A stretch of 40,823 nucleotides of DNA from Bacteroidia bacterium (GTDB lineage: Bacteria; Bacteroidota; Bacteroidia; NS11-12g; UBA9320). The first letter of the stretch is position 1, and each line of letters starts with the position of its first letter. The DNA is taken from contig JAFMCI010000015.1 in assembly GCA_017857855.1 (NCBI GenBank), positions 1-40,823 of the forward strand, written 5' to 3'. Both the position numbers and the translations under genes were made by a program. Positions 23,690 through 26,955 of this stretch are shown in pieces. The notes under the pieces are model-generated. The model searched no databases, had not been told where the DNA came from, and saw only the letters and a program-made list of their open reading frames with translations.

Positions 23690-24769
23690 ATGTTAGAAGA
23701 ATACTTAAGTAAAATAAGTCCTAAAGGTGATTATAACCCGTATCAATTGGGTACTAGTGTATCTTATTACAGTGATAATTTTCCCGATTTATCTTCTAAA
23801 AAAATAGCTTTAATAGGCATTACCCGTGATGACGGTCCACTGCAAGGATGTGATTTAATCAGGGATGAGTTTTATAAGCTCGTTACCCATACGCACCTAG
23901 AAAATAGTATTGTAGATATTGGCAATTTACCGGCAGGTGAAACCCCCGCAGATACCCATGCTGCTCTACTTGGCATCGCAAGCGAGTTAAAAAACATGGG
24001 TCTAGTTACTATTCTCATTGGAACTCATATAGACCAAGGCGAATCACTTTTTAAGAGCTATGTCGCCAGTAATAAAGCTGTTGAAATCTCACTCATTTCA
24101 TCCTATTTGCCCCTACTAGAATACCAACTTCTGCATCGTATTTGTTCCAATTATTCTGATCATTTAACTACCTTAAATGCATTAGCGTTTCAAGCACCTT
24201 TTATACCTACCAAAGCGATTGATACCTTACAAAACTTGAATTTTGGCCATTATCGCCTGGGATCCATAAAAAATAATATGGAGGATGCTGAACTATATTT
24301 ACGCAATGCTGCCATTACGTTATTTGATCTAAATGCCATAAAACACAGCGATTCACCCGGTAAAAAAGAAGCACAACCCAATGGACTTACTAACGACGAA
24401 GCATGCCAACTTGCTCGCTATGCAGGATTAAGTGATGTGTCATCATTTTTTGGCTTGTTTGAATATTATCCTGAGCACGATCTTCAAAACGTAACGGCTA
24501 AGCTGGCAGCTCAACTAATCTGGTATTACTTAGATGGATTTACGGCACGTACAAACGATCTGCCTAATAAGCATGACGAATTTTTTAAATACCGTTGTGA
24601 CCTAAAAGACAATCAACTTCCTATACTATTTTTAAAAAGTAAACGAACCAATAGATGGTGGATGCAACTTGAAAATCACCATATTCCTTGTTCGTATGCC
24701 GATTACCAAAAAGCGGCTGCTGGAGAGCTATCAGAAAGGTATTTGGATGCCCTCAAAAAACTGCATTAG
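23690..24769 (+). CDS. Arginase/formiminoglutamase-fold protein with degenerate metal site
   Basis: A 359-residue member of the ureohydrolase superfamily as found in Bacteroidota, often annotated formimidoylglutamase. The fold markers are readable (KIALIGITRDDGPLQGCD, VTILIGTHIDQGES, ITLFDLNAIKHSDSPG, TNDEACQLARYAGLSD), but the manganese ligands are not. The place of GGDHS reads IGTHID, that of DAHxD reads SLISSYLP, and that of DxDxxDP reads FDLNAIKHSDSPG. It is therefore probably not an arginase and may be a non-catalytic or differently acting homologue. The ATG at 23690 is chosen over an upstream in-frame ATG at 23624 that lies inside the divergent SDR gene. Confidence 0.8.
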   Translation: MLEEYLSKISPKGDYNPYQLGTSVSYYSDNFPDLSSKKIALIGITRDDGPLQGCDLIRDEFYKLVTHTHLENSIVDIGNLPAGETPADTHAALLGIASELKNMGLVTILIGTHIDQGESLFKSYVASNKAVEISLISSYLPLLEYQLLHRICSNYSDHLTTLNALAFQAPFIPTKAIDTLQNLNFGHYRLGSIKNNMEDAELYLRNAAITLFDLNAIKHSDSPGKKEAQPNGLTNDEACQLARYAGLSDVSSFFGLFEYYPEHDLQNVTAKLAAQLIWYYLDGFTARTNDLPNKHDEFFKYRCDLKDNQLPILFLKSKRTNRWWMQLENHHIPCSYADYQKAAAGELSERYLDALKKLH

Positions 24770-25035
24770 GCATCGTTATTTATATCACCAATGCAATAAT
24801 CATTCACCCTGCATAAGGCACTTACGTTACATTTCTTCTGTTTTTCCCTTCTGCGATTAGCTGCTATTAGCTGCCAAGTTTTCTGTAATTAGATCAAAAA
24901 ATAAAACACCACATACGCAAGATGTAATTGCAGCAGCTGTCTTTCCATACATGACATTTTGAATTATTTTAATCTTTTAATTGCCAGAATCATAAAGTTT
25001 CAGTATTTCATAAATTCTGCTATTTTTGAAGCGAC
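24770..25035. other. Intergenic region upstream of the MerR gene
   Basis: These 266 bases hold no credible gene. A short direct repeat ATTAGCTGC occurs twice at about 24857-24874. The last 50 bases hold the promoter and palindromic operator candidate of the regulator. Confidence 0.5.
24998..25028 (+). promoter_or_regulatory. Promoter of the MerR/CarH-like gene with operator in the spacer
   Basis: The -7 element TATTTTTG (25021-25028) matches the consensus fully. The -33 position has TTT (24998-25000) in place of TTG, with a 20-base spacer. The ATG is 8 bases after the element, so the mRNA is nearly leaderless. The spacer is almost entirely filled by the imperfect palindrome CAGTATTTCATAAATTCTG (25001-25019; arms of 8 with one mismatch). 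MerR-family operators characteristically lie in the promoter spacer, so this is the best candidate for autoregulation. A partial copy, CAGAATCATAAA, starts 16 bases earlier at 24985. Confidence 0.55.
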
Positions 25036-25968
25036 ATGGAAAACAATTTAAGTATCAAGGACTTAGAAAATCTAAGTGGAATTAAAGCTCATACTATCAG
25101 GGTATGGGAAAAAAGGTATAATTTTATTCAGCCGCAACGGACCGCTACAAACATTCGATTTTATCTAAATAACGACCTGAAAAAGTTGTTAAATGTTACA
25201 GCTCTTATGAATAGTGGGATGAAAATAAGTAAGGCGGCAATGCTAGAAACTAATAAGCTAAATGAAGCTATAGAAAATCTGCAAAAAACCGATTTAGATA
25301 CATTCGAAAAACTATTGGTAAACGATTTAATAATAGCTACCCTAAATTGTGATATCATCATGTTTGAAAAACACTATTCTGATTATCATAAAAAGTATGG
25401 CTTCGAGTCTACCGTGGAAAATATATTGTATCCTTTACTTACTCGAATAGGCCTCCTGTGGACCGTAAATAAGATGAACATCTCGCAGGAACATTTTTCT
25501 AGTCAACTCATCAAACAAAAGCTATTCGCTGCCATAAATGAAATTCCTATCAAGACCTCTACAACAAAGTTTTTACTCTTTCTGCCAGAAAAACAGTACC
25601 ACGAAATAGGACTTTTATACGCTCATTATCTTATCAGAAAGTCAGGGGTTCAGAGTGTTTACCTAGGGTCAAGTGTTCCATTATCAGATGTTAAGATATG
25701 TTCAGAGAAAATTAAACCGACGCATATACTGTGTTCATTTACTATTCCATTAGCCAAAGACAAAATGTCGTTATATCTAAGGAAAACAAGTAATCTTTTT
25801 AAAGATAATAATGTTCTTGTTCACAATGCCTCAATTGATAAATTAACTAAGCGTAGTTACCCATATTTATCTTTTTTATCTACTATCGAGGATCTAAAAA
25901 AGATTCTTTTACGCAGTATAGATTTTGAATCCATGGAAGGTCTAAAGCTTCAATGTAAAGATAGCTAA
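25036..25968 (+). CDS. MerR-family regulator with CarH-like cobalamin-binding domain
   Basis: A 310-residue regulator. Residues 1-70 form the MerR winged helix (SIKDLENLSGIKAHTIRVWEKRY). Residues about 85-165 form a four-helix bundle of the B12-binding type, containing the CarH hallmark Wx9EH (Trp142, Glu152, His153). A Rossmann-type cobalamin domain follows from about 178, whose signature ExHxxG reads QYHEIG (His189 and Gly192 kept, the acidic residue replaced by Gln187). In light-sensing CarH a histidine follows the Trp; here it is Thr143. The protein may therefore bind cobalamin but lack the CarH photochemistry, or bind another ligand. No carotenoid genes are nearby. It is convergent with rpoD across a shared terminator. 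Confidence 0.82.
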   Translation: MENNLSIKDLENLSGIKAHTIRVWEKRYNFIQPQRTATNIRFYLNNDLKKLLNVTALMNSGMKISKAAMLETNKLNEAIENLQKTDLDTFEKLLVNDLIIATLNCDIIMFEKHYSDYHKKYGFESTVENILYPLLTRIGLLWTVNKMNISQEHFSSQLIKQKLFAAINEIPIKTSTTKFLLFLPEKQYHEIGLLYAHYLIRKSGVQSVYLGSSVPLSDVKICSEKIKPTHILCSFTIPLAKDKMSLYLRKTSNLFKDNNVLVHNASIDKLTKRSYPYLSFLSTIEDLKKILLRSIDFESMEGLKLQCKDS

Positions 25969-26091: not shown

Positions 26092-26955
26092 TTAACCTAA
26101 GTACGATTTTAAGATTTTACTTTTACTTGACTTACGAAGTCTTCTTAATGCCTTTTCCTTAATCTGACGAACACGTTCTCGTGTTAGTCCAACTTTATCA
26201 GAAATGTCCTCTAGTGTGTGTGCAGGTCCACCATCTAGTCCGTAGTAGTATTTTAATACATCTCTTTCTTTTTCAGAAAGTGTAGATATTACACGATTTA
26301 TTTCTTTTCTAAGAGATTCATCCATCAGTGGTTGATCTGGATTAGGCTCATCATTATTATCCAGCACACCCAATAAACTATTATCTTCCCCTTCAATAAG
26401 CGGAGCGTCTATAGATAAATGTCTACCAGAAGATTTAAAGGCATTTTCAACCTCTGTAACACTTATTTCAAGTTCTTTTGCGATTTCTTCAGGTGTAGGT
26501 TCGCGCTCTTGGAGCTGCTCCAGTCTAGCTGCTGCCGCACTTATTCTACCAATACTACCCACTTTATTAAGAGGTAATCTTACAATACGTGATTGATCTG
26601 CCAAAGCCTGCAGAATAGACTGACGAATCCACCATACCGCATAAGAGATAAATTTAAAACCACGCGTTTCATCGAAACGTTTTGCCGCTTTAATAAGACC
26701 TAAGTTGCCCTCGTTTATTAAGTCACCTAATGTGAGACCTTGATTTTGATATTGTTTAGACACAGAAACCACAAAACGTAAGTTAGCATTTACTAGCTTC
26801 TCCAAAGCAGCTTGATCGCCATCTCTAATTCTACCTGCTAATTCTACCTCTTCTTGAGCATCTATCATCGCTACTTTACTTATCTCGTTAAGATATTTAT
26901 CGAGCGATTTGTTTTCCCGGTTGGTAAACTGTTTTGAAATTTTAAGTTGTCTCAT
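26092..26955 (-). CDS. rpoD: Primary RNA polymerase sigma factor, short Bacteroidota SigA type
   Basis: A 287-residue sigma-70 that directs RNA polymerase to housekeeping promoters. Region 1.2 is at about 17-47 ([27 protein letters not shown]). Region 2 includes [42 protein letters not shown] and the -10-reading helix [15 protein letters not shown]. Region 3 and region 4 follow, ending with the helix-turn-helix [28 protein letters not shown]. Region 1.1 is absent, as in other Bacteroidota. This protein should be the factor that reads the TAnnTTTG promoters found across the window, including one in front of its own gene. Confidence 0.95.

Follow-up and report, generated by a model that had tools for sequence, protein, structure and literature searches.

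We take CarH of Thermus thermophilus and Bacillus megaterium to be MerR-type AdoCbl photoreceptor repressors. The accessible portion of one account describes the characterised CarH proteins as repressors acting on repeats that overlap the -35 or the -10 element, gives the half-site the form TnnACA, and assigns tandem 11-bp direct repeats to two characterised tetrameric members (PMC9304148). For Pseudomonas, the available text of another report places folE among the LitR-dependent genes and gives the sites as T(G/A)TACA (PMC9758184), and for Chryseobacterium, the part of the report at hand records light-induced carotenoids and merely speculates on a LitR-like gene (PMC7064467). A described operator for B12-type light control in this Bacteroidota group did not appear among the titles and abstract openings listed by searches of the open literature, a body of text that mostly excludes subscription papers.

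The window, the whole stretch of 40,823 nucleotides of DNA that was analysed, contains a gene that the initial annotation called MerR/CarH-like, and profile searches bear this out. The encoded protein matches Pfam MerR_1 (3.2e-13, 50 bits against a cut-off of 21.6) and B12-binding_2 (2.8e-8, 34.3 bits against a cut-off of 23), the nearest solved structures are those of T. thermophilus CarH (3whp, 2.1e-20), and the CarH equivalog NF052513 is the top of 16 NCBIfam families with 103.1 bits. As this score does not reach the curated cut-off of 400 bits, the ORF is filed as CarH/LitR-type and not as an NF052513 equivalog. The phmmer alignment to CarH ends at residue 233, no Pfam model of the Rossmann-type B12-binding C-terminal domain matched the protein, and its AF2 model is poor (pLDDT 48, from a two-row alignment). 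Both ligand motifs are present, namely W-x9-EH, presumably the upper-ligand region of CarH, and HEIG, which we take to be the lower-ligand motif for cobalamin; the sole exception to HxxG among the 30 aligned family proteins has HEIS in place of HEIG. A carH match was found in 36 of the 38 family genomes (30 with loci, which were used for the protein alignment, and 6 fetched separately), L031 being excluded from the carH sets because it duplicates the G013 contig, with an equal length (38007) and identical upstream bases. The open frame, the HTH and both ligand motifs are intact in all four species of the window clade, i.e. the window genome (G000) and its three closest relatives, G013, G029 and G030. 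PF01923, the AdoCbl-making cob(I)alamin adenosyltransferase, occurs in the window genome and in 34/38 family genomes; the close relative G030, whose genome is 86% complete, gave no match. Judged from its sequence, the protein is a CarH/LitR-type regulator in which the cobalamin-ligand motifs are kept.

Table 1. Features at and around the carH gene, in window coordinates
Feature	Position	Strand	Basis or remark
Neighbour, arginase-like protein	23690..24769	+	Pfam Arginase, 24.2 bits (cut-off 22)
Partial direct copy proposed in the initial annotation	24985..25003		11/19 identity at offset 16; chance level
Possible -33 element TTTC, weak	24998..25001	+	Sequence; letters differ there in relatives
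Imperfect palindrome CAGTATTTCATAAATTCTG proposed in the initial annotation	25001..25019		7/9 pairs; unsupported as operator
-7 box TATTTTTG, TAnnTTTG type	25021..25028	+	7 nt 5' of the ATG at 25036; kept in 4/4
carH, CarH/LitR-type regulator, 310 aa, MerR HTH and B12-binding helical domain	25036..25968	+	Pfam, NCBIfam, phmmer
W-x9-EH motif, W142 to H153, presumed CarH upper-ligand region	25459..25494	+	30/30 aligned family proteins
HEIG, H189 to G192, presumed cobalamin lower-ligand motif	25600..25611	+	His 30/30, Gly 29/30
Neighbour, primary-type sigma factor (rpoD-type), convergent	26092..26955	-	Pfam Sigma70_r1_2, r2, r3, r4

The gene had also been predicted to yield a transcript with almost no leader, and the comparison with relatives supports this. 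A TAnnTTTG box lies 6 to 7 nt upstream of the start in all four clade genomes (TATTTTTG, TATTTTTG, TAACTTTG and TAAATTTG), which makes the near-leaderless start well supported; the remainder of the promoter differs in G013 and G029 despite the kept box. In F. psychrophilum, going by the portion of the study available to us, the TAnnTTTG box occupies -12 to -5, 5.5% of the mRNAs are leaderless and the median leader is 24 (PMC9723704), and this placement would give a carH start near 25033, leaving 3 nt to the ATG. When ORFs of the window genome were called with an ATG start, at least 100 aa and at least 60 nt available upstream (104 ORFs in 218,635 bases), 39 TAnnTTTG boxes were found within 120 nt of them against 11 expected from shuffles. 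Ten of these 39 boxes stand 4 to 8 nt ahead of the ATG, so the near-leaderless arrangement is not rare in this genome. The carH promoter feature itself is ordinary.

The initial annotation had further proposed that the palindrome in the spacer between the -33 and -7 elements is bound and retwisted in the manner of MerR activators. The palindrome exists as described, but 557 of 2000 shuffles of the 51-nt stretch that preserve dinucleotides (28%) and 148 of 800 window tiles of 51 nt hold an equal or better one, and it cannot be called more than chance. At least 7/9 pairs at exactly 25001-25019 was reached in 10 of 2000 shuffles, at a position picked post hoc. The partial direct copy fares no better: the best 19-mer repeat of the stretch (12/19) has an equal in 101 of 1000 shuffles, and 105 of 1000 contain an exact repeat of 7 bases, as TCATAAA is here. 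No TnnACA/TGTnnA half-site was found on either strand within 150 bp upstream of the window carH, which leaves spacer-bound autoregulation unsupported; tandem 11-bp TnnACA repeats were ruled out for this promoter, the half-site being absent altogether.

The proposal had been tied to conservation of the arms among orthologues. At the same register before the -7 box, the pairs number 7/9 in the window, 6/9 in G030, 5/9 in G029 and 2/9 in G013, i.e. the arms are not conserved in G013 and largely not in G029. Upstream identity to the window is 0.76 over the whole length for G030, 0.47 for G013 and 0.46 for G029; with the upstream regions of the latter two not aligning, the arms are not specifically kept. 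In G030, the only relative with a well-aligned upstream region, one pair is lost without compensation. A MerR activator would be expected to have a long -35/-10 spacer with a conserved palindrome; the one present here is at chance level and poorly kept, and 25001-25019 was rejected as an operator on the shuffles and the relatives. It is very improbable that the protein occupies this stretch as a genuine operator and, through the MerR spacer mechanism, autoregulates its near-leaderless promoter, whether by repression or by activation. Such a reading would draw on the paired arms and their location in the spacer, on the pair sum of the four promoters (20 of 36, reached by 18 of 3000 shuffles and hence exceeding chance) and on the right arm and TCATAAAG being retained in G030. 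Against it, more than a quarter of the shuffles are as good, the half-site is absent, the three relatives alone give a sum of 13 that is hardly above chance (196 of 3000), with G013 at two pairs, and identity between G000 and G030 is 0.82 in the 76 bp before carH, only slightly greater than the 0.73 of the distal intergenic part, and so does not single out the palindrome. The palindrome is most likely fortuitous.

A different element emerged from carH and crtI promoters outside the window clade. The candidate operator, TTTGTTTAA-N16-TTRAACAAA, consists of inverted TnnACA half-sites spaced 24 bp start to start, and its half-site TRAACA fits the CarH form. As the pattern was derived from the same genomes in which it was then counted, discovery and counts are not independent, and shuffles and a reversed control serve as the guard. 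The short pattern returned 52 forward and 44 reverse rows (96) in 38 genomes and its reversed control 10 and 9 (19), near-perfect sites counting on both strands in this search. For 30 rows, 28 distinct loci were obtained, of which 16 lie before carH (2), crtI (6), crtZ-like (1), rhodopsin (1) or ECF sigma (6) genes; a further 3 precede fasciclin-domain genes, 2 precede genes for NAD-binding proteins, and 7 have no evident light link (gene identities from ORFs read by eye, partly confirmed by Pfam). The 18-letter pattern is found in 17/38 family genomes and 3/70 sister-family genomes, with 0/108 for the control. In the sister family, two sites in G060 precede an ECF-type sigma gene, after which comes a lycopene cyclase gene; a light link is not evident for the other two of the three loci. 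Allowing up to 3 mismatches, no site was found within the window. Several genomes carry operator-like sites ahead of fasciclin-domain genes, at L129, L130, L135, L187 (named by eye) and L189.

The most conserved predicted target is an ECF sigma gene (PF04542, PF08281), present in 32/38 family genomes. Thirty of these have loci and 29 have enough upstream sequence; G022 (short upstream) and G002, G003 and the second G034 copy (no locus) were left out of the promoter set. The operator occurs at 16/18 letters or better upstream of the gene in 24/29 promoters against 3/1160 shuffles, and a TAnnTTTG box follows it in 21 of the 24, starting 25 to 27 nt past the operator in 19/21 and at 132 in the other two (G031 and G033). 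All four clade genomes carry it, starting 88 to 89 bp before the ECF gene with 16 to 17 of 18 letters and a variable spacer. With at most 2 mismatches these genomes return 15 rows against 1 for the control, and the sigma-gene site is the sole one shared by all four. In the window genome it matches 17 of 18 letters at C18:61932-61965, between the ECF sigma gene and the divergent PTPS-folE genes (PTPS and GTP cyclohydrolase I), and ends 26 bp before the TAnnTTTG box of the sigma gene.

Two further features of this locus were noted by eye. A AATACTTATAGACCTATTT-like stretch lies between the operator and PTPS in all four clade upstream regions (about 1578-1597 of L124, from C18 of the window genome) and is possibly an ECF-type promoter of PTPS-folE. 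TTGTAnnTACA, possibly a further TnnACA half-site, was seen upstream of the ECF sigma gene in G010, G012, G014, G016, G019, G023, G031 and G033-G037, and not in the window clade.

At carH itself, the operator reaches 16/18 or better in 9/36 promoters against 3/1440 shuffles; eight of these nine have it fused to the TAnnTTTG box, the two sharing one TTTG. The count of 9/36 comes from a scan that ran to 20 bases beyond the point where the first aligned residue begins, since the right arm overlaps the chosen start codon in several genomes; a scan ending at that codon gave 1/36. An everted form, TTAAAACAA-n11-14-TTGTTTTAA, reaches at least 16/18 in another 9/36 carH promoters and in 0/540 shuffles. 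Upstream of carH in G002, G003, G005-G007, G017, G019-G022 and G024-G028, the everted repeat TTAAAACAA...TTGTTTTA(A/T) or a weaker version was observed, making up another class of element at carH promoters; 9 of these genomes reach 16/18. Over all oriented sites, only 14 of 60 have the operator fused to TAnnTTTG, and the fused geometry is hence not general. Rhodopsin promoters reach the threshold in 5/18 cases against 4/720 shuffles.

Within the window clade, the picture at these genes differs. The window carH promoter scores 11/18 and 13/18 for the two element classes, below 16/18, and that of G013 scores 15/18. The crtI promoters score 12/18 in 4/4, on which an operator there was rejected, and the rhodopsin promoters stay below threshold at 13 to 14/18 in 3/3 (13/18 in the window genome). 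Upstream of the rhodopsin gene of the window genome (L205, from C25), a degenerate TGTCAA-N18-TAAACA in the correct 24-bp register was observed, and G030 is similar.

Conceivably, TTTGTTTAA-N16-TTRAACAAA belongs to a different regulator of light or stress genes, which would leave the targets of the window CarH undefined. Sites before fasciclin-domain and other genes fit this explanation, as does the presence of an exact site in only 20 of the 98 carH-matching genomes of the order. We nevertheless regard it as fairly unlikely, given that a quarter of the 36 genomes have the site in front of carH itself, that its half-site matches the published CarH form, and that G004 and G008, the family genomes without a carH match, have no site either (G008 being only 77% complete).

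The setting of carH also varies. By coordinates, the gene is grouped with crtI and crtB in 14/19 genus genomes; in G021 it is cut by the contig end. In the window, G013, G029 and G030, it lies between the arginase-like gene and rpoD, and crtI/crtB are on another contig. The crt cluster of the window genome has the order crtI, crtB (SQS_PSY), an ORF resembling crtZ and lycopene cyclase; the third had no Pfam match, and its crtZ-like name is our assumption. Within the clade, carH was observed to be far more divergent than either the adjacent genes or the crt genes (between G029 and G030, 98% of CrtI is shared and 60% of CarH). Exchange of carH alleles as the source of this divergence was rejected, since the fourfold-site values of carH (0.41-0.48) resemble those of the ECF gene (0.39-0.53).

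These data raise the question of whether carH, having left the crt operon, is decaying or changing function in the clade behind a promoter without any regulation. For the 6 clade pairs, the ratio of its amino acid divergence to that of crtI is 3.4 to 18; where carH and crtI are linked (78 pairs, 13 genomes), the median ratio is 1.8 (range 0.4-4.7). Neither operator class reaches 16/18 at a clade carH promoter. We consider this scenario unlikely, since the frame, the HTH and the ligand motifs are kept in the four species, the -7 box is retained in 4/4, and so is the operator at the sigma gene.

Our preferred reading, to which we assign a probability of roughly 0.6, is that a B12-dependent light regulator is made from an ordinary near-leaderless sigma-A promoter and acts away from its own gene, at the inverted-repeat candidate operator. 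carH would be transcribed from a sigma-A promoter whose -7 box is so close to the ATG that the leader is nearly absent. The protein would then bind the predicted site TTTGTTTAA-N16-TTRAACAAA under the control of AdoCbl and light; in the window genome it would act on the ECF-sigma/PTPS-folE locus, which is on another contig. The ECF sigma factor may relay the signal to the crt genes, the clade crt promoter being without the operator, and the carH gene of the clade would itself have a plain, operator-free promoter. Relatives have this site before carH as well, where it is fused to the -7 box, and before crtI, crtZ-like and rhodopsin genes. Several observations weigh against this reading: the NF052513 score of 103 against 400 bits and the unmatched Pfam B12-binding Rossmann domain; an inverted candidate set against the tandem direct repeats of two characterised tetrameric CarH proteins; the operator missing at clade crtI and sub-threshold at clade rhodopsin genes; 7 of 28 loci, and two of three in the sister family, without an evident light link; and the exact site in 20/98 genomes of the order, together with G030 lacking a PF01923 match.

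More tentatively, and with somewhat less than even confidence, we propose that the B12 light regulator of this family reads an undescribed inverted-repeat candidate operator of 24-bp register in two TAnnTTTG geometries, that pterin genes and, in some relatives, rhodopsin belong to its regulon, and that carH in the window clade is no longer part of the crt operon or under its own control. In the first geometry, the operator is fused to the -7 box (carH, some crtI) and would serve repression; in the second, it ends 25 to 27 bp before the box (ECF sigma), a position that would suit contact with RNA polymerase. The analysis thereby offers a concrete, testable candidate operator for B12-type light control in this Bacteroidota group. 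The candidate recurs in two geometries at the promoter type characteristic of the phylum, and its most conserved predicted target is an ECF sigma gene. If the proposal is true, genes for carotenoids and pterins and, in some relatives, for rhodopsin would be linked to light sensing by B12. Promoters other than that of the window carH lend themselves to studying how MerR-type control is arranged at TAnnTTTG boxes.

Among described systems, CarH of T. thermophilus and B. megaterium resembles the window protein in its MerR HTH and B12-binding domain, its W-x9-EH and HxxG motifs, and the TnnACA form of the candidate half-site. The differences are that the window protein falls far below the NCBIfam equivalog cut-off and that the candidate operator is an inverted repeat in a 24-bp register, whereas the available account gives theirs as tandem 11-bp direct repeats. 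The classical MerR activators (MerR, CueR and ZntR) share the HTH domain family; unlike in these, a B12-binding domain replaces the metal site, and the -33/-7 spacer holds no supported operator. Inverted repeats do occur in the CarA operator of Myxococcus xanthus, but CarA differs in being a B12-independent dimer with the antirepressor CarS, according to the portion of the source at hand (PMC9304148). The Pseudomonas LitR proteins (PplR/PmlR) have folE among the genes they regulate and TnnACA-like sites, in common with what is predicted here; as far as the accessible text describes them, these class II proteins work with a LOV photoreceptor, whereas the window protein keeps its cobalamin motifs (PMC9758184).
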